From NCBI GenBank assembly GCA_030649895.1, contig JAUSEX010000032.1, positions 1-53,641 on the forward strand: 53,641 bases of DNA. The letters run 5' to 3'. This DNA comes from Candidatus Omnitrophota bacterium. Its GTDB lineage: Bacteria; Omnitrophota; Gorgyraeia; Gorgyraeales; Gorgyraeaceae. This document shows positions 863-18,007 of the stretch, in pieces. A program made the translations under genes and the position numbers. The first letter of the stretch is position 1, and every line of letters starts with the position of its first letter. Below the pieces are notes generated by a model. That model was not told the origin of the DNA and made no database searches. It saw only the letters and a list, made by a program, of their open reading frames with translations.

Positions 863-1216
863 CTAAAAGAGTTTCTTTTTTAAAAGATTTACGCCTGTTT
901 CGTATCTGATCGCCTCAGAATCTTCTTCCCCGGAAAATTCTTCAAGCCAAACCACCCTTCCTCTTAATAACATAGACTTATTGCTGTTCGGGTCTTCTAT
1001 CTGTATATCCAGGAGCGAGCCTTTCGGGAGCCTTGAATTTACCTGGAATCTTAGGCCGTTTTTGGATATGTTTTTTGTGAGACTTTCTTCGGAATATTTT
1101 GTTTCAGGGCAGGAGTAATTTAACTTCAGCATTATGTCATATCTTTTAGAATCGCGGCGGTCATTGATAAAATCAGGGGCTTTTTTAAACTCAAACAGAT
1201 TTTTGAATAACTTCAT
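863..1216 (-). CDS. PilZ domain protein
   Basis: RDSKR (RxxxR) and NISKNG (NxSxxG) PilZ motifs. Confidence 0.85.
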   Translation of the reverse strand: MKLFKNLFEFKKAPDFINDRRDSKRYDIMLKLNYSCPETKYSEESLTKNISKNGLRFQVNSRLPKGSLLDIQIEDPNSNKSMLLRGRVVWLEEFSGEEDSEAIRYETGVNLLKKKLF

Positions 1217-1217
1217 G

Positions 1218-1589
1218 TTATCGCGCCAATAGGCTGTTTTTTTCTAAAGAGTCTATTAATTTTCCAATGCAGAGAAGATCTGGATTTATAAATTTTATAC
1301 CTGCCTCGAAAATATGGTTTTCTTTTGCGTCAGAAGGGGCATCCCATGCCCACATTACTTTGCCCATGCACCTGAAAGCGATATCTGTATTATGCTTGAA
1401 GACCTCCATGTTCAGCATTGAACCTGGTTTCAGTTTTTTTAATAGAGGCATTCTTATGCCGCCGCCGCTTATATTTCTGGTAGTGCTGCAGAATTCTCCG
1501 TCAGTGCCTTGCGGACTGTACCTTACTGCAAGTTCTCCGCTTACTCTTTCAAACAGCCTGTTATTGGTTTCGGCAAGCATAGAATACAC
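1218..1589 (-). CDS. PilZ domain protein
   Basis: RLFER and NISGGG motifs. Confidence 0.85.
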   Translation of the reverse strand: MYSMLAETNNRLFERVSGELAVRYSPQGTDGEFCSTTRNISGGGIRMPLLKKLKPGSMLNMEVFKHNTDIAFRCMGKVMWAWDAPSDAKENHIFEAGIKFINPDLLCIGKLIDSLEKNSLLAR

Positions 1590-1669
1590 CTCCCCTTCTT
1601 TAAACAGCTGTTAATCTGCGCAAGGTTATTTTTAGCAGCCTTGCGCAGATTGGTTAAGGAAATTTTAAG

Positions 1670-2584
1670 TTACTCCATTTTTGTCCCATCATATGGACAG
1701 AATTTTACAGTTCCAGGAAATATTCTTCTGCATTTCCGGCACATGACTTTTAGCGGACGATCAGAGGAATTATTTGCTACAACCTGCGTAGCGATATTGG
1801 CGCCTGAATTTTGGATACCCTGCTGAGCCTTGGCGTTTACCTTAGATATTATAGCGGGTATTTCTTTTTCCATCATTTTAATTCTATTGGATGTATATGG
1901 ATGACTGCGAAGAAAAATAGGACCCATATCGCTTTTATCCTTTTCATTTAATTTTTTTAGAAACGAGACCATTGCGTAAGGGTTGTAACCGGCTTTATAG
2001 GCGTATTTTACGCCAAGCCTGTCAGACAGAAGTTCGTCTTCTCTTGAATACCCCAGCTCTACAAGATTGAACGTGACGCCTATTGCCTGCTGCATTTGCC
2101 TGACGCTTGCGTTCCGAAGAGCTATGTTCATTAAAATATCATAGCCTAGTTGAGTTTGAAGTTTTTTGGCAATATGCCTCGCAGCAACATGGCCTATTTC
2201 GTGACCTATCACGCATGCCAGCTCATCGTCGGTTGTCATATCGATAAGCCCTGAATTAATATAAATATATGCGCCTGGCATTGTAAAGGCGTTAATTTCC
2301 TTATCTTCAACTACGGCAAAGTGATACTTAAGGTCAGTCCTGTCTGATACCTTTGCCAGTTTCTCCCCTATCTCTGTAATTTTATTTACCTGCTGGGGGT
2401 CTTTTATAAAAGTATACTGTTTTGCTACCTGCATTGCCGTGTTTTGTCCGAGCGCTACCTCCATAGGCGTTGTGATAAACACAAGCTCTTTTCTTTCGGT
2501 CGCGGGATTGTATGACGTGGCGCAGCCAGGGGTTAAAAAGGAAACCGCAATTAATAGTATAGTAAAAAGCTTAGCAACTTTCAT
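1670..2584 (-). CDS. M48 family metallopeptidase lipoprotein with C-terminal zinc-ribbon-like tail
   Basis: lipobox FLTPGC; HEIGH zinc motif; C-terminal CRKC-x10-CPYDGT. Confidence 0.9.
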   Translation of the reverse strand: MKVAKLFTILLIAVSFLTPGCATSYNPATERKELVFITTPMEVALGQNTAMQVAKQYTFIKDPQQVNKITEIGEKLAKVSDRTDLKYHFAVVEDKEINAFTMPGAYIYINSGLIDMTTDDELACVIGHEIGHVAARHIAKKLQTQLGYDILMNIALRNASVRQMQQAIGVTFNLVELGYSREDELLSDRLGVKYAYKAGYNPYAMVSFLKKLNEKDKSDMGPIFLRSHPYTSNRIKMMEKEIPAIISKVNAKAQQGIQNSGANIATQVVANNSSDRPLKVMCRKCRRIFPGTVKFCPYDGTKME

Positions 2585-2952
2585 TCTTCTTTTTTTATCG
2601 CTCCTGTTTTTGCATACATAAGGTTACATAAAAATTTTAAAAAAGTGTTCTTATTGTCTTCTTCTATTTTCTCAAAATCAATGCCCGAACTATGGCAATG
2701 TCTTTTGGCAATGCCTGATTCCCCTGACCAGACCACAACACCTCTTATGTGAACAGGGTTAGGCGCTTCCGGCACAAATATCTTCAGATCAACTTTATCG
2801 CCTGTCTCCATCTTCTCTTCAGTCAATAATTGCATGCCCTGGGCGCTTATATCTTTAGTTGTCCCGGTTTTTTCTGCCTTAAGTTCTTTTCGAATAATGT
2901 AAGAAACCTTTAAGGCTATATCAAATCTTATGAATCTTCTTTTTTCTCTCAT
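2581..2952 (-). CDS. PilZ domain protein
   Basis: RRFIR and DISAQG motifs. Confidence 0.85.
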   Translation of the reverse strand: MREKRRFIRFDIALKVSYIIRKELKAEKTGTTKDISAQGMQLLTEEKMETGDKVDLKIFVPEAPNPVHIRGVVVWSGESGIAKRHCHSSGIDFEKIEEDNKNTFLKFLCNLMYAKTGAIKKEE

Positions 2953-2961
2953 TAAAACTCC

Positions 2962-3453
2962 TTAATCCAGCTTTGTTATGCTAAGCTTTGAGTTTTCTAT
3001 CTTTTTATATTCTATGCCGGCTTCTTTAAACAACGCCTCAAAGCTTTTATCCGCGTACTGGCCGCATGTAACGAATTTCTTTATCCGCGCGTTCACTATC
3101 ATCTTTGCGCAAAGGATGCATGGGGAATGAGTGCAATATATTATACTGTCAGCAATGGTTATTCCGTGTAGCCCTGCCTGTATTATAGCGTTCTGTTCCG
3201 CGTGTATTGCCCTGCATATCTCATGCCTTTCGCCTGAAGGAATCCCCTTTTCGTCTCTTAAACAGCCTAATTCCAGGCAATCTTTTACGTTTCTGGCCGC
3301 TCCATTATATCCGGTGGTAAGTATCCTCTTGTCTCTCACGATGACTGCCCCCACATGATGCCTTAAGCAGGTAGATCTCTCAGCCACAAGATATGACATC
3401 TTTAAAAAATATTCATCCCATTCAGGTCTTTTTAATCTTTGCGATTGCTTCAT
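2962..3453 (-). CDS. deoxycytidylate (dCMP) deaminase
   Basis: RPEWDEYFLKMSYLVAERSTC, HAEQNAI, SPCILCAKMI deaminase zinc motifs. Confidence 0.92.
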   Translation of the reverse strand: MKQSQRLKRPEWDEYFLKMSYLVAERSTCLRHHVGAVIVRDKRILTTGYNGAARNVKDCLELGCLRDEKGIPSGERHEICRAIHAEQNAIIQAGLHGITIADSIIYCTHSPCILCAKMIVNARIKKFVTCGQYADKSFEALFKEAGIEYKKIENSKLSITKLD

Positions 3454-3970
3454 CTATTTTTTTGTGAAAATCCTCCAGGCTGGAATTATTCGCGATTAAG
3501 ATATCAGCTGATTTTAAGCAATTTTCCAGCTGCTGGTTCGTGGAGCTCCGTATGTTTTCCTTTTTTTCTTTTTCTATAAAATCTTTTATGGTCTTAGGAT
3601 CTCCAGGCCTTTTTCTTTCGATAGCCCGCCTGAATCTTATTTCTACGGGGGCTTCTATGCCTATAAGGGTAAAGCCTTTTAATTTCCTGAGAGCTTTTAT
3701 TTCAAAAGGATTCCTTATGGAATCAATCGCGCAGTTTTTTTTACCTTCAATCCTTTTTACAGCAAGACTTGCAAGTACCGAAGGGCCTTTTTTTCTTCTT
3801 AATTCATTACCCAGCTTTATCAGGTTTTCGCGCGATGGCTCTATTTTTTTGAGCCTGGCTTCTTCCCTTAATATATCAGAGAGCGAATAATATTCGAAAC
3901 CTTTTGACTTTAAATAACTGGCCGCTTCGCCTTTTCCGGAAGCATTTGCGCCTGTTAAGCCGATAATCAT
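3422..3970 (-). CDS. P-loop nucleoside/dephospho-CoA kinase-like protein
   Basis: GLTGANASGKGEA Walker A; 32-nt overlap with downstream dCMP deaminase ORF. Confidence 0.7.
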   Translation of the reverse strand: MIIGLTGANASGKGEAASYLKSKGFEYYSLSDILREEARLKKIEPSRENLIKLGNELRRKKGPSVLASLAVKRIEGKKNCAIDSIRNPFEIKALRKLKGFTLIGIEAPVEIRFRRAIERKRPGDPKTIKDFIEKEKKENIRSSTNQQLENCLKSADILIANNSSLEDFHKKIDEAIAKIKKT

Positions 3971-4287
3971 TTAACAATGCTTCCTGGAGCAACAGGCCTG
4001 TCAGGCGACAGAACAGCTAATGTTTCTCCGTCTTGGGTTGCCAGGATCATGCCCTTACTTTCCACGCCTCTTATTATAGCGGGCTCAAGGTTTCCAACCA
4101 CAACCACTAGTTTATCCACGAGTTCTTCTTTGCTGTAGCTTTTTTTTATTCCGGCTACTACCTCTCTCTCCTCTTCTCCTATTGCCAGCCGCACAACATA
4201 AAGCCTGTCAGCATTTGGATGATCAGCTACGCTTTTTATCCTGGCTATTCTTATATCTAGCTTCTTAAACTCTTCTATGTTTATCAT
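3967..4287 (-). CDS. tRNA-binding (EMAP/MetG-beta-like) domain protein
   Basis: FKKLDIRIARIKSVADHPNADRLYVVRLAIGEEEREVVAGI typical of the MetRS C-terminal tRNA-binding domain. Confidence 0.88.
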   Translation of the reverse strand: MINIEEFKKLDIRIARIKSVADHPNADRLYVVRLAIGEEEREVVAGIKKSYSKEELVDKLVVVVGNLEPAIIRGVESKGMILATQDGETLAVLSPDRPVAPGSIVK

Positions 4288-4296
4288 CAGATCCTC

Positions 4297-4770
4297 CTAA
4301 GGCCTTCTTAATGTGTTCAGGTGCGTTGTTAATACAGCTTCCGCCTCAGGGTTTATTTTTTCAAACTGCAGGCCTGTATAAAACATTCTTCTGCCCTGCT
4401 TATCAGGAGAAGGCAGTTCTTTTACCCACATAACGCACCCTGTCAGTTTTATTGGTTTTGGAAAACCAGGCACTTCTATTTCTATCGCCAGGCTGTCTTT
4501 TTCTTTGAGCTTCTCGTAGGTAGAAATGCAAAGGCCTCTTCTGGATATGTTGAGCATCCTGGCGTCGTCTCCGCCTGGATTAGAGCCGATGTGGCTGTAT
4601 CTTATTTTCATGTCCTCTTGAAACCTTACAAATTTCCTTTTTTCTTTCAATACCCAGTATTTATTTGCAATGCCGTGCGTTAGCCCCTTCCTGGTTTTCA
4701 CTTCCTCCGTCAGCGTTATAAGCAGTATAAAAATCAATAACAGGAGAATAACAGCGTATATCAGGTACAT
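4297..4770 (-). CDS. membrane-anchored PilZ domain protein
   Basis: N-terminal TM helix; RKFVR and NISRRG motifs. Confidence 0.85.
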   Translation of the reverse strand: MYLIYAVILLLLIFILLITLTEEVKTRKGLTHGIANKYWVLKEKRKFVRFQEDMKIRYSHIGSNPGGDDARMLNISRRGLCISTYEKLKEKDSLAIEIEVPGFPKPIKLTGCVMWVKELPSPDKQGRRMFYTGLQFEKINPEAEAVLTTHLNTLRRP

Positions 4771-4773
4771 TTT

Positions 4774-5868
4774 TTAAATCTCCAACAGTTCGTACTGGCC
4801 AGTGCCCAGTTTGATCTTTTCAGCATGTTTTATCTGGATAAGAAGGTCTATATCTGGAAATTGCTCCTTAAATTTGTCTATGCCTATAAGATCCATAGAG
4901 GCCTTGTCTACTGCCACAGGATCTGTGCCGCATATTATGCCTATATCGGGCGCAATAGGCGTTTCATTTTTTGACATACAGTCGCAATTTTTGGTCACGG
5001 TTTCTAAAAAGTTTAAATACGCTATTTTAGAGCTTAAGGCCTTTTTTACGCCTAGAGCATATTCTACCATTTTTTCCTGAAATTTTACAACATTTTCGTC
5101 GTATTTTATATCAATAGCGCCTGTCCTGCAGGCTACTGTGCATTCTCCGCAACCTATGCACCTTTCATTTACCAGTATAGCCTTTTTCTTTTTTATGCCT
5201 ATGGCGTTTGCAGGGCACACGCTCATGCATGCGCCGCAGCCAGCGCATTTATCAATTATTATCTCAGGGAGAGTGCCTGAATGCTGCAAAAGTTTTCCCT
5301 GTCGGGAGGCGCAGCCCATGCCTAGGTTTTTAAGAGCTCCGGCAAAACCTGATTGCATATGGCCTGTCACATGCGATATGCAAATCATATTATCGCTTTC
5401 GCATATGCCCCTTGCGATTTTAACGTTTTCAAAATGGTCTCCGCGTATTGATATGGTTTGCCCATCCCTGCCGCGCAACCCATCAGCTATAATTACAGGG
5501 ATACCTATTTTATCCAGGCTGTAACCATGGCTATTTGCCACGTGAAGATGGCCAACGGCATTTGACCTCTTTTCCCTGTAAAGCGTATTAGTTTCTACTA
5601 TAAAAATGTTTTCCGTCTTTTGTTTTAAGGAATTTAAAATGCCTGCGAGCCATACCGGCTTAATGTATCCAGACGTATCTTCTTCCCCGAATGTTAATTT
5701 TATTGCAGTAAAGCTATTTTTGTCTATAAAATCAAGCGTCGGCTCCAGGCATTGCCATGCAGATAGAACAGTTTCGTTTATTTGCTGGTCGTCGGACCAG
5801 TCCCGAAGCCTTTTGACGTAAACCTTACTCGGGGTTGTTTTTGGCGCTGCCTTTGAGTGATTCTGCAA
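4774..5868 (-). CDS. DUF362 domain 4Fe-4S protein
   Basis: two CxxCxxCxxxCP ferredoxin clusters (CAGCGACMSVCP, CIGCGECTVACR) within DUF362-like sequence. Confidence 0.85.
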   Translation of the reverse strand: MQNHSKAAPKTTPSKVYVKRLRDWSDDQQINETVLSAWQCLEPTLDFIDKNSFTAIKLTFGEEDTSGYIKPVWLAGILNSLKQKTENIFIVETNTLYREKRSNAVGHLHVANSHGYSLDKIGIPVIIADGLRGRDGQTISIRGDHFENVKIARGICESDNMICISHVTGHMQSGFAGALKNLGMGCASRQGKLLQHSGTLPEIIIDKCAGCGACMSVCPANAIGIKKKKAILVNERCIGCGECTVACRTGAIDIKYDENVVKFQEKMVEYALGVKKALSSKIAYLNFLETVTKNCDCMSKNETPIAPDIGIICGTDPVAVDKASMDLIGIDKFKEQFPDIDLLIQIKHAEKIKLGTGQYELLEI

Positions 5869-6943
5869 GAGCTATCCTCCTGGATATTGGCGGATGGTCA
5901 TAAAGCATTATTTCGTAAAATCTGCCGGGATTTACATCTGCCAGGTTTTGTTCTCCAAGCCTTTTCATGGTAGCCATGAACGCGCTGACATCGCCCGTAG
6001 CCTTTAAGGCGAATTTATCAGCGTCTTTTTCCATGCGCCTGGAGAGAGCGTTTGCCGCGGGTATTAACGGTATGCTTAGGATTGTCGTAGCGAAATAAAT
6101 AAGCACTATTGATTCGTAATCATGAATTAATCTGTAACCAAAAAAAGTATGCAATTTTAAGAATATGGTATTTGCGAAGAAGAATGTTACGAAAGTAAAA
6201 AATCCTCCTGATAGTATAAGTTTCCACATGTGGTTCAGCTTATGGTGTCCAAGCTCATGAGCCATTACAGCTTCTATTTCGCTGTGGCTGAAATTAGAAA
6301 GGAGCGTATCGCAAAGCACTATCCTTTTCTGTCTTCCTAGTCCTAATAGCGCAGCGTTGGCTTTTTTTGTGTCTTTGCTTATGTTTAGTTCATATACGCC
6401 GCTTGCCTTGAACCCGAATCTTGCCACAAGCCGGCCAAGCCTTTGCGATAAATCAGCGTCTTTTACAGGAGAATATTTATAAAAAAGAGGCACTATTATT
6501 GCGGGTGCAAATTTTGCAAGTATAATTGAAATAAAAAACCATAAAAAAGCCGTCCATAGCCACCAGTTTAAAGGCGATATTTTTAAAAAGGCGTACAGCG
6601 ATACAACCAAAGGCGCGCTTATTATGAAGGCAATGATACTTTTCTTGGCCTCCATTATTATCCAATCTTTCAACGACTGATTGGAGAGAGAAAACCTGTG
6701 CTCCAGCATGAATCCCGAGTAAAATTCCAAAGGCAGGCTTATTGCATAATAGAGCGTCCCGGTGAGCGCATAAAATATAATAAGGCTGACGTATTCTTTG
6801 CCGGAAATAAGAAACGCCGCATTTTTAAAATAAGTTGGAATCCCGATAATTAACAATACCCATAGCGATATAGGGGTAAGAAAAATACCTATTATTGCGA
6901 TCCTGTGTTTTATTGTAGAGTATTGTTTAGCTTTATCCCGCAC
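5825..6943 (-). CDS. M48 family (Ste24/CAAX protease-like) membrane metallopeptidase
   Basis: VMAHELGHHKLNH; multiple TM segments. Confidence 0.9.
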   Translation of the reverse strand: MRDKAKQYSTIKHRIAIIGIFLTPISLWVLLIIGIPTYFKNAAFLISGKEYVSLIIFYALTGTLYYAISLPLEFYSGFMLEHRFSLSNQSLKDWIIMEAKKSIIAFIISAPLVVSLYAFLKISPLNWWLWTAFLWFFISIILAKFAPAIIVPLFYKYSPVKDADLSQRLGRLVARFGFKASGVYELNISKDTKKANAALLGLGRQKRIVLCDTLLSNFSHSEIEAVMAHELGHHKLNHMWKLILSGGFFTFVTFFFANTIFLKLHTFFGYRLIHDYESIVLIYFATTILSIPLIPAANALSRRMEKDADKFALKATGDVSAFMATMKRLGEQNLADVNPGRFYEIMLYDHPPISRRIALAESLKGSAKNNPE

Positions 6944-7457
6944 GATTTTTCATGAAGTTATGCCTTATCTCGTTTAAAATGCGTATATATTTTTTGCTTC
7001 TATAGTCAGGGTATGTCCATTCGAATGGTTCAAAGCTATGTTTGCGCCACTTAAGCGTGATTTCCGCGTATATGCCGCGGGTAAGATATATCCTGTGAAA
7101 ATAATCCTTTGTTGTGGCAAGGACGAGTTTTGAATCAGATATGTATCCGGGGTCTATATTTACTTGCCGATTATTGTTTACGCTGAATTTTTTTTCAATG
7201 GAATTGGTGAGGAGTTTTATTTCCGCAATTTTTTCTTGAGAAATGAGCGTTTCAAAGGATATAAATTTTCTCTTGAGGCAACTGCCCATCTCTTTTTTAT
7301 AGTAGGTTGTATATTTAAAAGTAATTGCGGGGCTTTGGTAATCTATAGCTCCGAATTCTTTAATAAAAAACTCTTCGGCTTTTTCGAAGAGTTTTTTATT
7401 TTTGGCGAGCATTCCTATGATAAGTTTTACTGCATTTGGCTTTTTAGCGCTGCCCAT
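6933..7457 (-). CDS. DUF4416 family protein
   Basis: AKKPNAVKLIIGML...FKYTTYYKKEMG...DPGYISDSKLVLATTKDYFHRIYLTRGIYAEITL. Confidence 0.85.
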   Translation of the reverse strand: MGSAKKPNAVKLIIGMLAKNKKLFEKAEEFFIKEFGAIDYQSPAITFKYTTYYKKEMGSCLKRKFISFETLISQEKIAEIKLLTNSIEKKFSVNNNRQVNIDPGYISDSKLVLATTKDYFHRIYLTRGIYAEITLKWRKHSFEPFEWTYPDYRSKKYIRILNEIRHNFMKNRAG

Positions 7458-7470
7458 TTATACCTGTGCG

Positions 7471-7851
7471 TCATTGGCTTATCTGTATTTCAGCCGGGTC
7501 CATATTGCCGGAAGCCACATACTCCTCTGCTATTTTCTGGTCTCTTTTGGATATATCTGTGAAAAATATAGCTATATTGTAATGAGCCTTATCAGAGTCT
7601 CTTACTATTGCAGGTTCTGTCCTGACTACAACCCCTTTGCATTTTATTTTTTTTGTAGGGCTTTCAAGATTTTTACCCGGGATCAAGAGCGCAACCTCTA
7701 TCTTTGACATAGGGGGAAGATTTCTGGTGACCCTGCAATAAGCGCCGGACGAACTAATATCAGCTGTTTCTGTTATAATATCAAAAACAGAGTCTGCAAG
7801 TTTGACGGGTATATTTTTTCTTGCCCTTATATTTCTGCGGCGCTCAATCAT
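7471..7851 (-). CDS. PilZ domain protein
   Basis: RRNIR and DISSSG motifs. Confidence 0.85.
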   Translation of the reverse strand: MIERRRNIRARKNIPVKLADSVFDIITETADISSSGAYCRVTRNLPPMSKIEVALLIPGKNLESPTKKIKCKGVVVRTEPAIVRDSDKAHYNIAIFFTDISKRDQKIAEEYVASGNMDPAEIQISQ

Positions 7852-7855
7852 ATGA

Positions 7856-8035
7856 CTATGCTTTTTTCTCTTTTTTAGCAGCTTGGGCTTTTACAGCCTG
7901 TTGCCAGCAGCCTTTAGAACAATAATAACCGTTATTTTTATAATACCACGTTTTCCTGCTTAATCTTTTATTGCATTTCATGCAATTTGTAGGTTTTTCT
8001 GCTGCTTCCGGCGTTTTCTTTGTTTCTTCTGGCAT
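7856..8035 (-). CDS. 59-aa Cys-rich zinc-finger-like protein (not in the ORF track)
   Basis: Manual translation MPEETKKTPEAAEKPTNCMKCNKRLSRKTWYYKNNGYYCSKGCWQQAVKAQAAKKEKKA*; CxxC...CxxxC; fills the gap between flanking genes. Confidence 0.7.
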   Translation of the reverse strand: MPEETKKTPEAAEKPTNCMKCNKRLSRKTWYYKNNGYYCSKGCWQQAVKAQAAKKEKKA

Positions 8036-8036
8036 C

Positions 8037-8699
8037 TTATTTCCTCCGTATTTTTCTTATGGGGCACATGTTGCACAAAGGTTTCTTAGACTTACAGACT
8101 GACTTTCCTAACTCGACTATTAATGCGTGAAACTCGTTGAATAATCTCTCGTCCTTCTTAAGGTTATTCATAAACAAGGATTGCGCCTCTTTATAAGTAG
8201 CCTCTTCGTTTATGAAGCCATGCCTTGACAATATCCTTTTTGTATAGGCGTCTACTACAAAAACAGGCTTATTTCCGGCATATAAGAGAATGCTGTCAGC
8301 CGTTTCCTGGCCGATGCCTTTGACCGACAGAAGCTTTTCTCTTAATTTATAAAGATCCGACCTGAACATTTTGTTAATAGAACCATTGTAACACATGTTC
8401 AGGAATCTTAAAAAGTTTTTTATCCGGTTCGTTTTTATATTATAATAACCGGAAGGCCTTATAAGTCTCGCCAGTTTTTTCTCGCTAATATCGGATAGTT
8501 TGTTTACGCTCAGGGCCTTTTCTCTTTTTATGTTTCTAATGGCTTTTTCTACATTGGTCCAGGCTGTATTTTGCGTGAGTATCGCGCCTATTATTATTTC
8601 AATTTTAGTATCGCCCGGCCACCAATGCCTTGGACCGAACTTGGCGTATAGCAAATTATATATTGTTAACAAAGATCTGGTTAATTTTTTATTCTTCAA
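8037..8699 (-). CDS. endonuclease III domain protein (HhH-GPD, 4Fe-4S)
   Basis: LSVKGIGQETADSILLYAGNKPVFVVDAYTKRI; C-terminal Cys cluster CKSKKPLCNMCP. Confidence 0.9.
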   Translation of the reverse strand: MKNKKLTRSLLTIYNLLYAKFGPRHWWPGDTKIEIIIGAILTQNTAWTNVEKAIRNIKREKALSVNKLSDISEKKLARLIRPSGYYNIKTNRIKNFLRFLNMCYNGSINKMFRSDLYKLREKLLSVKGIGQETADSILLYAGNKPVFVVDAYTKRILSRHGFINEEATYKEAQSLFMNNLKKDERLFNEFHALIVELGKSVCKSKKPLCNMCPIRKIRRK

Positions 8700-9574
8700 C
8701 GCTCTGTGCGTTCTTTTATTCTTGAAGCCAGCTCCACCAAAAGGTTGTAATATTTTGAATCCCTTATAATTGGAAATTTAACCTGTTTACCTTTTTGGGT
8801 ATGCTCTTTAAAAGAACCTACGATTAATTCGGTGCCTCTGTTTTTGTCTTTTATTTCAAGGGATGTGACTATTTTATGTTCAATTGATGCGTTGGAGTCA
8901 GCCCATAGCTCTTTCATGAGGGTAAGTTCTATGGGCCTCGTGGCTAAGATATTACCTATTACCCTGTTAGAAAAAATAACAGAATACCCGTTTTCTCTCA
9001 ACACTATCAGCGCATAAGAGAATACAGTGCTTGAATCCGCGTCTATTTCAGCTTTTACAATGCTTGATTCCCTGGAAACCGCGATTTTTTCAAGGCTCAG
9101 GGCATCTCTCGCAGTAGATTCGTATCCGGAAGCGGCGTATCCTGAAGTTACGGTTTCTACGGGCGCTAGCGACCTGGCCTGGCTAGCGGATCCTAAAAGG
9201 GTCTTCCATTTGGATCTTTTCGGTTCTTGATATACAGCGCTTTCTTCCTCTGTCTGAACGTCTTTTATTTTTTTGACAATAAGGATATTGTCTCCTTCTC
9301 TGATTTCTTCCTCGGCGTTTAATATTTCTGCGGCAGCCACGTCATCCCTGACTTCCACGATCTGGGCCTCCGCTATTTTTTCGGCATTCCTATGCACAAT
9401 AAGGCCATCGCCTATTTCTACCCCGTCATTTTCACCCGCCTTGATTATTATGTACTCCTTGTCAGGATTTACGCTCATTATCTGCGAATCAATCTCTATT
9501 TCATCCTGAGAAAAAGCGATTCCGGAGAGAAGCGCGCAGAAAGCGTATAAAACAAAAATGTTTTTTATCATCAC
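8696..9574 (-). CDS. exported hypothetical protein
   Basis: signal peptide; N-terminal SH3-like segment (NPDKEYIIIKAGENDGVEIGDGLIVHR). Confidence 0.7.
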   Translation of the reverse strand: MMIKNIFVLYAFCALLSGIAFSQDEIEIDSQIMSVNPDKEYIIIKAGENDGVEIGDGLIVHRNAEKIAEAQIVEVRDDVAAAEILNAEEEIREGDNILIVKKIKDVQTEEESAVYQEPKRSKWKTLLGSASQARSLAPVETVTSGYAASGYESTARDALSLEKIAVSRESSIVKAEIDADSSTVFSYALIVLRENGYSVIFSNRVIGNILATRPIELTLMKELWADSNASIEHKIVTSLEIKDKNRGTELIVGSFKEHTQKGKQVKFPIIRDSKYYNLLVELASRIKERTER

Positions 9575-9580
9575 AAGCGC

Positions 9581-9609
9581 ATTCTAATACAAAAAAATAA
9601 AAAATACAA
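9581..9609 (-). promoter_or_regulatory. predicted sigma70-type promoter of the 8696..9574 gene
   Basis: minus strand TTGTAT - 17 bp - TAGAAT. Confidence 0.45.
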
Positions 9610-9634
9610 GAAAAATTTAATCTAAATTGTGCTG

Positions 9635-9651
9635 TTTGAATAGTCAGGTAA
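9635..9651 (-). repeat. 17-bp repeat copy 1 (minus strand TTACCTGACTATTCAAA)
   Basis: identical to 43779..43795. Confidence 0.85.
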
Positions 9652-9800
9652 GGCGTTAAGTAATCGCCAGCCTTGGCAGCCCTGAAGATTTCTGCCGAAA
9701 GGCCCCAACCGGCTTTAGCGTGTGCCATGCCCGCTCAAATCAACGGGGCTTTTATCAGAACCTGCCAGGATTAGTAAGAGCTTCTCATAGTTTTACATAA
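9652..9800 (-). ncRNA. possible structured non-coding RNA, family unidentified
   Basis: GC-rich non-coding block in an AT-rich gap; hairpin potential on minus strand (GCCCCG...CGGGC, GGCAG...CTGCC, GGCG...CGCC); TTGACA at 9829-9834 upstream. Confidence 0.3.
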
Positions 9801-9846
9801 CGTTGTTAATTTACAAGGTGTTTGGATTTGTCAAGTTAATAGAGGA

Positions 9847-10278
9847 TTAATGAAGGGAGTATTTGCAGCCTTTGTCAAAAGTTTCTCTGAAGTCGTACCT
9901 GTCGTGGAAATCTTCCCTGCGATCTTGCTCTGTCTTGCCTAGTAAGCCCGAATCTATGAGATTAAAAACTATCTCTCCAAAGTCATTAGTTGATTTAACG
10001 CCCCATTTCTCAAGCACAAGCCTTGCCATTGGCCCGAATTGTTCGAGGCAATAGTCTTTTACGCCGTCAGAGAGCTCCTGTCCGCTCACATGGCCTTTTC
10101 TATTCAGCCTTTTCATGGTATAATCCAGGCTCGCCATGATAAAAGAATACACTTCCGGATCATATCTTTTATCCTTGTCCAGTATCTTTAATAAGGCAAA
10201 GACCTTATTCAGACTTTGTTTGTTTTTAGTTTCAGCCATAAGTGGTAAAAGTATACCCTGCGATATTGGTTTTGTCAA
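9847..10278 (-). CDS. Minf_1886-like conserved protein
   Basis: KRYDPEVYSFIMASLDYTMKRLN...GHVSGQELSDGVKDYCLEQFGPMARLVLEKWGVKSTNDFGEIVFNLID; likely start at internal MAETKNKQ. Confidence 0.75.
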   Translation of the reverse strand: MTKPISQGILLPLMAETKNKQSLNKVFALLKILDKDKRYDPEVYSFIMASLDYTMKRLNRKGHVSGQELSDGVKDYCLEQFGPMARLVLEKWGVKSTNDFGEIVFNLIDSGLLGKTEQDRREDFHDRYDFRETFDKGCKYSLH

Positions 10279-10318
10279 GATGGCGGGGATAAATCCGGTT
10301 CTTAAAAAACTGAGGTAT

Positions 10319-10618
10319 CTATGTAATGCCTGTTAGCGGGCTCAGAAATCTCGCGCCTACTTCAAATTTTTCGGAATAAGGCTGATTTGAGATCCACACG
10401 ACTTTTGCAGTTGCCTGGATTGGCTCTGCGCGCCATGGAGGGCGCAATTCAAATATGAGCTTTGAATTTTTCGGGATGAATTCGTTGGAAATAAACCTTA
10501 TGCCGCTAGTGCTTATATCTTTGCCTGTTGTATCGCTGTAGCGCTGAAGCCCTTCCTGGCGATAGCGGACAGGCGAATCAAATGATATTCTTGGGACAAC
10601 CCTTCTTTCCTCTTCCAT
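10319..10618 (-). CDS. PilZ domain protein
   Basis: RVVPR and DISTSG motifs. Confidence 0.85.
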   Translation of the reverse strand: MEEERRVVPRISFDSPVRYRQEGLQRYSDTTGKDISTSGIRFISNEFIPKNSKLIFELRPPWRAEPIQATAKVVWISNQPYSEKFEVGARFLSPLTGIT

Positions 10619-10657
10619 ACCATAACTTTATCATGTAAGTCCATACTTGTCAATAGG

Positions 10658-11041
10658 TTATTGAGTTTCTACAACCTTTTCCACTATAGAATTTATCCTT
10701 ACAGCGTCTTTTCTTTTCAAAGTCGTAAACTCCAGGCCTGTATCAAAAGATTCTTTTTTTCTATCTTCTTTACTAGCTATAACCCACGCTACTGTGCCGT
10801 CGCATTCTATGGTAGGCTGGCCGTCCAATAAGTCCAGGCGTATCTCTACGGGAGCAAAAATTCCCAGATCTTTTGGCAGCATAACGCATATGCCGCCCAA
10901 ACCTATGTTTTCAGTCTGCGTTGATATGTTATCTGCCTGGTCTTTTCTCTTTACTGATAAAACGCACGGGTAACTGGCTCTCGGAAACTTCCTTCTATTT
11001 ATCCCGCCCCACATAAAAACCTCCTTGTTATTTTTAAACAT
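10658..11041 (-). CDS. PilZ domain protein, variant second motif
   Basis: RKFPR present; NIGLGG instead of (D/N)xSxxG. Confidence 0.75.
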   Translation of the reverse strand: MFKNNKEVFMWGGINRRKFPRASYPCVLSVKRKDQADNISTQTENIGLGGICVMLPKDLGIFAPVEIRLDLLDGQPTIECDGTVAWVIASKEDRKKESFDTGLEFTTLKRKDAVRINSIVEKVVETQ

Positions 11042-11132: not shown

Positions 11133-11954
11133 ATGTACATCGATTTCTATAACTTAAAAGAAAAGCCTTTCAGCGTTACCGCTGACCCTAATTTCCTCTA
11201 TCTTAGCAAAAAACATAAAGAAGCCATCTGTCACATGCAGTACGGGATTCAGGAGCGCATGGGGTTTTTGGAGATTACGGGCGAGATAGGCGCAGGAAAA
11301 ACTACTGTATGTAAGGCTCTTCTGAACCAGCTGGATAGTCACACAAAAACAGCTTTTATATTGAACGGGAACCTTTCGGAAAATCAGTTGCTGCAGGCTA
11401 TCATAGAGGATTTTGGCATACAGGTAAAGACAAAGAATAAGATAACGATGATCAATGAGCTCAACAGGTTTTTGCTTGAGCAGCTGGGGCACAGGAATAA
11501 TGCGGTGCTTATTATAGATGAAGCTCAGAATTTGAAACCATCGCTCTTAGAGCAAGTAAGGCTTCTGTCAAACCTTGAAACAGAAAAAGAAAAATTATTG
11601 CAGATTATCTTGGTTGGTCAGCCTGAATTAAGGGAAAAACTTGCTTCCGGAGAGCTGAAACAATTGCGCCAGAGGATAGCCATAAGATATCATATCTCCT
11701 CTCTATCAAGACATGAAGTAGCCTGTTATGTCTCGCATAGAATGAAGGTTGCGGGCGCAAATAACAGAGAGATTTTCAACAAGGACGCTCTTGAGGAAAT
11801 ATTTAAATTTTCAGGGGGTATACCAAGGTTGATAAATATAGCTTGCGACAAATCGCTTCTCGCGGGTTATACCGCAGATAAAAAAATAATAGATTCCGAT
11901 ATAGTAAAAAAATGCGCTAAAGAAATAGAGGGGGTGTTTGATGAGCATTGTTAA
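11133..11954 (+). CDS. ExeA/GspA-like AAA ATPase
   Basis: MYIDFYNLKEKPFSVTADPNFLYLSKKHKEA; GEIGAGKTT Walker A; LIIDEAQ Walker B. Confidence 0.9.
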   Translation: MYIDFYNLKEKPFSVTADPNFLYLSKKHKEAICHMQYGIQERMGFLEITGEIGAGKTTVCKALLNQLDSHTKTAFILNGNLSENQLLQAIIEDFGIQVKTKNKITMINELNRFLLEQLGHRNNAVLIIDEAQNLKPSLLEQVRLLSNLETEKEKLLQIILVGQPELREKLASGELKQLRQRIAIRYHISSLSRHEVACYVSHRMKVAGANNREIFNKDALEEIFKFSGGIPRLINIACDKSLLAGYTADKKIIDSDIVKKCAKEIEGVFDEHC

Positions 11955-12426
11955 CGACGCTTTAAAAAAGGCGGGCAAGGAATTTGACTACAAGAATCGG
12001 GATGCAGATACGAGCGCTACCGCGTTGGTTATGGAAACCTATCAAAGCTCTAATAGAAAATGGACAGCCATCATAACCGTATCTCTTATTATCATAGCAT
12101 CTCTTTTCGGGTCTCTCGTTTTATATAAAAACATGTCTAAGATAGACACTGATTATGTTTCAGACGGGACTGATAAATCCATTTCCGTTATTCAGTCTGC
12201 GCTTAACAGCATGGAGCAAAAAACTGTTCTAAAGGCTATGAGGTCGCATGATTTCGCGAAACTGAACGGCATTGTTTACGGCGACGAAGGCAAATGGGCT
12301 ATTGTTAACGATAAAATCGTCAAGGAAGGCGACAAGCTTATCGGCGGAGAGATTATAAGCATAACCAGGGATATTGTGAAGATTCAAAAGAATGACGGGA
12401 GCGAGGTAATCCTTAGCTTAAAGTAG
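11941..12426 (+). CDS. GspB-like membrane protein
   Basis: MSIVNDALKKAGKE N-terminus, single TM, C-terminal KLNGIVYGDEGKWAIVNDKIVKEGDKLIGGEIISITRDIVKIQ. Confidence 0.7.
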   Translation: MSIVNDALKKAGKEFDYKNRDADTSATALVMETYQSSNRKWTAIITVSLIIIASLFGSLVLYKNMSKIDTDYVSDGTDKSISVIQSALNSMEQKTVLKAMRSHDFAKLNGIVYGDEGKWAIVNDKIVKEGDKLIGGEIISITRDIVKIQKNDGSEVILSLK

Positions 12427-16235: not shown

Positions 16236-16499
16236 TTACATATTTTTTAGATATTTCTCTATCTTTTTTATGATTTCTTTATTGTTTGTATAAGCGTATG
16301 CGTTGGTGGAAGCTGTCCTGTGACATACGATTATTCCTTCTTTTACCAGTTGATTCAGGACCTTTTGCGTATTGTTTATGTCTCCGCCTATCCACAGCGA
16401 AATGCCTTTTGCGGTATCTATGCAATTAGGATTTTCGTTAAAAAAAAGCAGTATCTTTCCGGAAAGACCTTTCTTAAATAAATGTTTTATGTTTTTCAT
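16236..16499 (-). CDS. small winged-helix-like protein
   Basis: 87 aa; LWIGGDINNTQKVLNQLVKEGIIVCHR resembles a wHTH; abuts HD-GYP gene. Confidence 0.5.
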   Translation of the reverse strand: MKNIKHLFKKGLSGKILLFFNENPNCIDTAKGISLWIGGDINNTQKVLNQLVKEGIIVCHRTASTNAYAYTNNKEIIKKIEKYLKNM

Positions 16500-18007
16500 G
16501 CCGAAACCCCAAGCATATTTTTAAATTTCGGTTTTTTGGTAACCTCTATAAAAGCGTCAACTGCTTCCGGGTCAAACTGAGAACCTTTATTCTTTTTTAT
16601 TTCTTTTATTGCCTGGGATACGCTTATTTTTTTGCCTTTATAAGGCCTGGCGGATACCATTGCTTCAAAGGCGTTTGCCACGGCCATTATTCTGGCGCCT
16701 ACCGGGATTTCCGCGCCTTTAAGCCCGTCAGGATAGCCTGCGCCGTCATATCTCTCATGATGGTGCTTTATTATAGGCATGGCATGTTTCAAGAACCCCA
16801 TGTGCTCTATTATCTTAAGGCTTTCAATATGCTGTTTTTTTATGATAGCGTACTCCTTGCTGGAAAGGCACCCTGGTTTTTTAAAAATTTCTTCCGGGAT
16901 GCTGAATTTTCCGGTGTCCGGCAAAAGCGCTGAATAATGAAGATTAACTATATCCTCCCTGGGTAATTTCATTTCTTCGGATATAGCCAGGACTATTTTT
17001 ACAAACTGGTCGGAATGGGTAAATGTATTCGGAGACTTTGAGTCAAGGAGCGCCGCCAGGGTCTTTATGCTCCCGTAAGCCATCTTTTCCTGTTCTTCGT
17101 ACATCTGCGCATTTTTTATAGCGATAACAGCCTGCTCCGCCAGTGTTATTAAAATCTCTAGTTCGAATTTGTCAAAAGGCGCGCCGTTTGTCTTGTCTCT
17201 GGCGCTAATGACGCCTATTACGTCTTCTTCTACGAGGGGCACGCAGATAGAATTATGCGAAAAAACAGTCTTGTATGTCTTCGCAACTCCTCCCTCCAGC
17301 TTAGCCCCGAGCTTTATTTTTTTATACTGCAGGCCTGTTTTTGGTATTTCTTTATCCAGATCAATTACAGCCTTCGGGACAAGATATCTTTTTGATTCGT
17401 CTAAAAGCATTATTGAACAATGCCTTGATCTCATAACCTGCAGGGTCAGCCTCGCGATGCGTTCTATCAGCTCATCCATGTTAAGCGTAGAGCTTAAAAG
17501 CCTGTGGATAGTGTGTATCGTGGAAAGCGCTATTGCCCTGGGCCTGATTGTTTCGTACAGCTTGGTTAATTCCTGTTCTTTTTGAAATTCTCTTAGCGCA
17601 AGGTCCATGCATATCCTGACGGAATCTACGATAGCTTTCCCGGGTTCTTTGTCTAAGTGTGTAAATAGCACATAGCCGTAAACGCTTGAACCCTGCATTA
17701 TAGGAAGAGAAAGGCAGATCTTGTCGCAGCTGCACTTAAAGATCATGTATTCTCTTAAAGGGCCGGCCTTTATCTTTGCCAGGTATTTGCCGAGCTTAAG
17801 ATGGTTGCATTTCTCCCTTCTGCATTTAAATTTAACAGGCGCGTATTCTGCGTCAAGAAACGCGCAGCGGTTTTTTTTGAGTATCTTTGAGCAAAAGGCC
17901 CTGAAAGCGGAAACCGAACTGCTTTTCGGAAATTTTATTAAAAACGCCTGTTTTTCTTTTTTTTCAGACTCTTTCATATGGGTCGAATAGTTTTTTATAT
18001 TCATCAA
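16496..18007 (-). CDS. GAF + HD-GYP domain protein (putative c-di-GMP phosphodiesterase)
   Basis: GAF region; LPDTGKFSIPEEI; HHERYDGAGYPDGLKG HD-GYP motif. Confidence 0.88.
   Translation of the reverse strand: MMNIKNYSTHMKESEKKEKQAFLIKFPKSSSVSAFRAFCSKILKKNRCAFLDAEYAPVKFKCRREKCNHLKLGKYLAKIKAGPLREYMIFKCSCDKICLSLPIMQGSSVYGYVLFTHLDKEPGKAIVDSVRICMDLALREFQKEQELTKLYETIRPRAIALSTIHTIHRLLSSTLNMDELIERIARLTLQVMRSRHCSIMLLDESKRYLVPKAVIDLDKEIPKTGLQYKKIKLGAKLEGGVAKTYKTVFSHNSICVPLVEEDVIGVISARDKTNGAPFDKFELEILITLAEQAVIAIKNAQMYEEQEKMAYGSIKTLAALLDSKSPNTFTHSDQFVKIVLAISEEMKLPREDIVNLHYSALLPDTGKFSIPEEIFKKPGCLSSKEYAIIKKQHIESLKIIEHMGFLKHAMPIIKHHHERYDGAGYPDGLKGAEIPVGARIMAVANAFEAMVSARPYKGKKISVSQAIKEIKKNKGSQFDPEAVDAFIEVTKKPKFKNMLGVSA

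Follow-up and report, generated by a model that had tools for sequence, protein, structure and literature searches.

The 53,641-nucleotide stretch of a Candidatus Omnitrophota bacterium analysed here (the window, which is the entire contig C1 of a 1.68 Mb genome, 97.7% complete in 59 contigs) carries seven PilZ genes within 10.2 kb, and the interpretation favoured, with a probability of roughly 0.55, is that these genes make up an ancient array, inherited vertically, whose distinct PilZ receptors serve several outputs and are in part tied to an envelope machine. The genes are labelled by position as Z1 (863), Z2 (1218), Z3 (2581), Z4 (4297), Z5 (7471), Z6 (10319) and Z7 (10658). Each paralogue most likely binds cyclic di-GMP (c-di-GMP) and would relay the signal to its own target, with a single second-messenger pool feeding several outputs from one locus. 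At least the oldest and most conserved part is probably connected to the way in which a type IV pilus (T4P) or type II secretion system (T2SS)-like envelope machine is assembled or works. This part would comprise the Z7 and Z6 genes, which diverge from the gene of a GspA-like ATPase with a GspB-like partner, together with the pairing of Z5 or the membrane-anchored Z4 type with DUF4416.

An earlier note on this DNA had proposed seven minus-strand PilZ open reading frames (ORFs), and a Pfam search places all of them, at the positions listed in Table 1, above the PF07238 gathering score of 22.5 bits. Its account of the motifs is also borne out, with RxxxR present in all seven proteins and (D/N)xSxxG in Z1 to Z6, the exception being Z7, and its description of the proteins as single-domain holds for all but Z4, which carries an N-terminal membrane helix. 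A profile search of the genome itself yields 12 PilZ matches over the cut-off, seven of which lie inside the array. For seven of 12 random positions to fall within 10.2 kb the probability is bounded at about 3e-10, which rules out chance scatter of the PilZ genes. The array run comprises 17 genes and 16 gaps, with 11 of the gaps, counting overlaps, no longer than 13 bp and two above 100 bp, and as these gaps are short or negative the array is likely co-transcribed as one to three transcripts.

The copies are divergent, as had been claimed, with significant alignments showing at most about 32% identity between them, and within-genus counterparts are much closer (92% for Z5 and 90% for Z7 relative to locus L076). 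A FastTree phylogeny built from 291 PilZ domains recovers every family ortholog group as one clade with support of 0.97 to 1.0, with the exception of Z3 (0.08). Recent tandem duplication is ruled out by the low inter-copy identity together with the separate clades, and the suggestion of a repeatedly duplicated adaptor does not survive in the sense of recent duplication, since the copies are ancient. The genes keep a colinear order, Z7-Z6-...-Z5-DUF4416-...-Z4-...-Z3-M48-Z2-Z1, at loci of the genus (L078, L079, L080) and of the family (L086, L087, L090). These loci hold seven to nine PilZ genes, some family members having one or two extra with a maximum of nine in L090. One locus (L077) is rearranged or lacks some members, and the arrays of some relatives are interrupted by contig ends. 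The clustering is thus conserved in relatives, and the array is old and vertically inherited throughout the family. Neither outcome that the earlier note named as refuting it, low profile scores or relatives devoid of clustering, is observed. All seven genes are under purifying selection, with pairwise dN/dS values of 0.06 to 0.33 that are comparable with those of the interleaved genes. Orthologues of Z2 to Z6 retain the c-di-GMP motifs without exception or nearly so, and the second motif of Z1 is canonical in six of nine.

A core of the array persists across much of the class, one part of it joining Z7 and Z6 to the GspA-like ATPase and the other Z5 and Z4 to DUF4416. A PilZ gene lies divergent from the GspA-like ATPase gene, within 700 bp, at 23 of the 30 loci with the best class matches. 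When class PilZ proteins are assigned to family groups by hidden Markov model, this divergent PilZ is Z7-type in 20 of 22 cases and Z6-type in all 14 cases in which it doubles as the second PilZ before DUF4416. The PilZ directly before DUF4416 is Z5-type at 50 and Z4-type at 19 of 73 loci, and the second is mostly Z6 or Z5. As context follows paralogue class-wide, the array core predates the families. An old, inherited array with conserved core neighbours therefore constitutes a testable multi-output signalling locus and not chance scatter, and the idea of many parallel outputs fits a conserved local array of divergent paralogues for which a receptor role is likely.

DUF4416 occurs exactly once in 105 of 147 genomes, and the window protein is a clear family member, scoring far above the PF14385 gathering threshold of 27 bits, with its closest named relatives in 'Candidatus Omnitrophica/Omnitrophota' metagenome-assembled genomes (best 80% identity). 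A same-strand PilZ gene lies immediately upstream of DUF4416 at 68 of 102 loci, immediately downstream at none and within three genes at 75, for which the gap to the nearest same-strand upstream PilZ has a median of 13 bp. Because loci are related by descent, a count by family is fairer, and by hand count the association is found in 23 of 35 sampled families. The pairing sets the Omnitrophota DUF4416 apart from other members of PF14385, with PilZ upstream at 48 of 60 Omnitrophota loci versus one of 39 in other phyla (a locus labelled Planctomycetales), the loci compared being those of a named genome collection plus further phylum loci, with some Omnitrophota genomes overlapping the 102-locus set. 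Since DUF4416 almost never stands beside PilZ in other phyla it is not an obligate partner, and its candidacy as a general PilZ partner is ruled out. The gene upstream of DUF4416 in one family (o138), considered as a divergent PilZ, has a sequence that reads as YjbQ-type and is excluded from the counts. The DUF4416 structure model is confident (pLDDT 95); a structure search of the PDB returns nothing better than E 0.001, its hits being weak and of HPPK/ferredoxin-like fold, and a sequence search of the PDB returns no match. The protein has many invariant charged residues, which suggests that it may be an enzyme.

Clustering of PilZ genes extends beyond this family, whose seven to nine genes per array are the extreme among genomes seen. 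Across 13 contiguous Omnitrophota genomes, 43 of 126 PilZ genes have another one no more than 3 kb away, where 4.4 would be expected, and clustering is weaker elsewhere, at 11 of 67 in the 13 PilZ-bearing genomes among 14 from other phyla that were reached via loci of other searches. This mild clustering in other phyla lends something to the main rival explanation, in which an ancient tandem duplication left an order that is merely inherited, position is without functional meaning and the proteins act elsewhere. Its chance is real although clearly a minority one. Most interleaved genes are housekeeping genes exchanged between families, and the near-absence of PilZ neighbours from DUF4416 loci in other phyla points the same way. 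Passive inheritance accounts poorly, however, for the persistence of the Z7-GspA and Z5/Z4-DUF4416 contexts across families while other neighbours swap, for the near-zero gaps and for the excess over expectation in Omnitrophota.

The dCMP deaminase, tRNA-binding domain, HhH-GPD, DUF362 and M48 neighbours vary from one family to the next and for the most part have the look of companions in an operon. The earlier proposal of a duplicated adaptor with its neighbours as partners is supported only in part, by the class-wide persistence of Z5/Z4 with DUF4416 and of Z7/Z6 with the GspA-like ATPase. A wider form of it, with duplicated adaptors each gating an adjacent enzyme such as the M48 proteases, DUF362 or the dCMP deaminase, is very unlikely. 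Gene order is fixed within the family and the spacing is tight (a 4 bp overlap of Z3 and M48; gaps of 3 bp for DUF362/Z4 and 9 bp each for Z4/tRNA-binding domain and dCMP deaminase/Z3), but beyond the family these neighbours rarely adjoin PilZ (between one and three times each), DUF4416 and GspA being the sole ones to recur, and the CAAX-type M48 and DUF362 genes lie next to or near DUF4416 also in families without a PilZ there.

The array ATPase and the protein encoded after it resemble GspA/GspB (ExeA/ExeB) and the TIGR03015 ATPase in the tandem of an ATPase and a small membrane protein and in the family match of the ATPase. They differ in that a PilZ gene is divergent from the ATPase gene in much of the class, and in that the GspB partner is matched by no model, neither Pfam nor NCBIfam giving a match over cut-off. 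The ATPase narrowly passes TIGR03015, which is XrtA/PEP-CTERM-associated, and this leaves room for an exosortase-type role. PilZ domains commonly control exopolysaccharide synthases, and an array that serves exopolysaccharide/exosortase (PEP-CTERM-type) export instead of pili or type II secretion would be in keeping with both points. Such a function is nevertheless highly doubtful, as no exosortase or polysaccharide synthase is recognised on reading the window ORFs (an exosortase search was not made genome-wide) and the genome is rich in T4P/T2SS genes that carry c-di-GMP-type domains.

Those T4P/T2SS genes bear on the favoured multi-output reading through their association with signalling domains. 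The genome has ten T2SSE-family matches; at one locus the genes for PilM, T2SSF, a T2SSE that bears MshEN domains and a GAF-GGDEF protein are neighbours, and another has a PilZ gene near PilN, T2SSF and MshEN-T2SSE. The occurrence of T4P/T2SS loci with GGDEF, PilZ or MshEN makes a pilus or secretion output plausible. The search agrees with the earlier note that the window has no GGDEF cyclase; eight GGDEF matches lie elsewhere in the genome, and c-di-GMP would be made by these proteins encoded outside the array. At locus L361 (10421-12028) a pilus-type ATPase is apparently split into an MshEN-only and a T2SSE-only ORF adjoining a GAF-GGDEF gene, and locus L365 (4788-6755) encodes a histidine kinase that combines PAS domains with a PilZ domain at its C-terminus.

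The HD-GYP gene pointed out near the array is real by Pfam, but its HD motif is degenerate in the genus. The window and L076 have LLPDTGK and ANAFEAM versus LLHDTGK and ADAFEAM in other families, changes of HD to PD and of a later Asp to Asn with which two metal ligands are lost. GAF-HD-GYP counterparts lie near the same core in other families and mostly have intact motifs. Despite the lost ligands the gene is under purifying selection (dN/dS 0.10), and judging from its residues the protein is likely non-catalytic in this genus, where it probably now acts as a receptor or regulator.

Z7 is the member of the array that departs from the canonical second motif, with NxGxxG in 11 of 11 family orthologues, and class-wide the GspA-divergent PilZ has the canonical form in two of 22. 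The class-wide alignment keeps an N-terminal MWxGI(N/D)RR(K/R)FPR and TENIGxGGIC; Cys26 and Cys52 do not vary in it, and Cys80 is present in at least 90%. Z7 represents a PilZ subfamily marked by a specific motif change that is fixed across families. Its AlphaFold2 model (pLDDT 85.4) has the PilZ fold, with MrkH, MotI, Alg44 and YcgR as the best PDB matches (E 1e-5 to 1e-4). Loss of the Ser in Z7 does not rule out c-di-GMP binding, because Myxococcus xanthus PixB binds c-di-GMP with PilZ domains that lack the second-motif Ser (PMC8316039). M. xanthus has 24 PilZ proteins, 14 of them with a PilZ domain only, and is comparable in having many PilZ proteins in several independent pathways (PMC8316039), whereas in the present small genome the majority of the PilZ genes share one conserved neighbourhood. 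Known single-domain PF07238 receptors (PA4608/MapZ and the PilZ domain of Alg44) share the Pfam family, both motifs in six of the seven proteins and the fold predicted for Z7, and what sets the present case apart is that seven paralogues of ancient origin share a single 10 kb array. Known stand-alone PilZ genes tend to be described one at a time. In the case of Z4, the N-terminal membrane helix is common to Z4-type proteins class-wide, as judged by hydrophobicity. A stronger version of the favoured reading is a dedicated c-di-GMP distribution locus with receptors inherited as one unit, in which the Ser-to-Gly, Cys-bearing Z7 type would directly gate the GspA-like ATPase and might integrate redox with c-di-GMP signals, and in which DUF4416 would be a new PilZ-dependent effector in Omnitrophota; this is rather unlikely as a whole.

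Several points weigh against an array of c-di-GMP receptors tied to an envelope machine. The pilus ATPases and GGDEF genes all lie outside the array, GspB is recognised by position and sequence resemblance only, and the narrow TIGR03015 pass makes exopolysaccharide/exosortase work an alternative to pili. No PilZ is directly upstream of DUF4416 at 34 of the 102 loci, including whole families (f17, f22, f32, f35), and the canonical second motif is missing from Z1 in three of nine orthologues. The ATPase loci are the 30 best matches, and the gene maps derive from mechanical ORF calls.

The domain is a known one and the arrangement is new and phylum-specific; searches of the literature for PilZ or c-di-GMP in Omnitrophota, and for GspA/GspB together with PilZ, turned up no description of it and no other relevant work. 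Members of the Omnitrophota have small genomes and are for the most part uncultured, and a gene set with fixed neighbours makes testable both the function of DUF4416 and the splitting of one second messenger among many stand-alone receptors.

Table 1. Features of the PilZ array and its surroundings in the window.
Feature	Position	Strand	Evidence
Z1, single-domain PilZ, RDSKR / NISKNG	863..1216	-	PF07238 41.8 bits; family clade support 0.97
Z2, single-domain PilZ, RLFER / NISGGG	1218..1589	-	PF07238 32.5 bits; clade support 0.995
M48 peptidase, lipoprotein-like; overlaps stop of Z3	1670..2584	-	PF01435 122 bits
Z3, single-domain PilZ, RRFIR / DISAQG	2581..2952	-	PF07238 49.3 bits; motif in 14/14 orthologues
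dCMP deaminase	2962..3453	-	PF00383 92 bits
P-loop nucleotide-kinase-like, overlapping deaminase gene	3422..3970	-	PF13207; NF006226 / NF041025 below cut-off
Stand-alone tRNA-binding domain	3967..4287	-	PF01588 100 bits
Z4, membrane-anchored PilZ, N-terminal hydrophobic helix, RKFVR / NISRRG	4297..4770	-	PF07238 38.1 bits; hydrophobicity class-wide
DUF362 ferredoxin-like protein	4774..5868	-	PF04015 + Fer4
CAAX prenyl protease (M48, Ste24-like)	5825..6943	-	PF01435 + PF16491
DUF4416 protein, PilZ companion in much of class	6933..7457	-	PF14385 209.7 bits
Z5, single-domain PilZ, directly upstream of DUF4416, RRNIR / DISSSG	7471..7851	-	PF07238 39.0 bits
HhH-GPD (endonuclease III-like) protein	8037..8699	-	PF00730
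Predicted secreted protein	8696..9574	-	no Pfam match at E<=1
Minf_1886 family protein	9847..10278	-	TIGR04138 147 bits
Z6, single-domain PilZ, RVVPR / DISTSG	10319..10618	-	PF07238 44.0 bits
Z7, PilZ, Ser-to-Gly second motif, RKFPR / NIGLGG, conserved Cys; divergent from GspA-like ATPase	10658..11041	-	PF07238 49.9 bits; alignment; PilZ fold
GspA/ExeA-like AAA ATPase	11133..11954	+	PF13401 99.5 bits; TIGR03015 328.4 bits (cut-off 324.5)
GspB-like membrane protein	11938..12426	+	position + C-terminal sequence; no family match over cut-off
GAF + HD-GYP, degenerate metal-binding motif; wider conserved neighbourhood	16496..18007	-	Pfam HD_5/HD + GAF

Among the interleaved genes, the predicted secreted protein is without any family match, yet is conserved in the array family-wide at 40-76% identity. 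The kinase-like gene overlaps the dCMP deaminase gene by 32 bp, and the order of the pair (2962-3970) is that of the two domains of an anti-phage dCTP deaminase. The model for the latter (NF041025) gives 61.8 bits on the kinase part against a cut-off of 400, and the pair is probably metabolic because it is conserved in the family.

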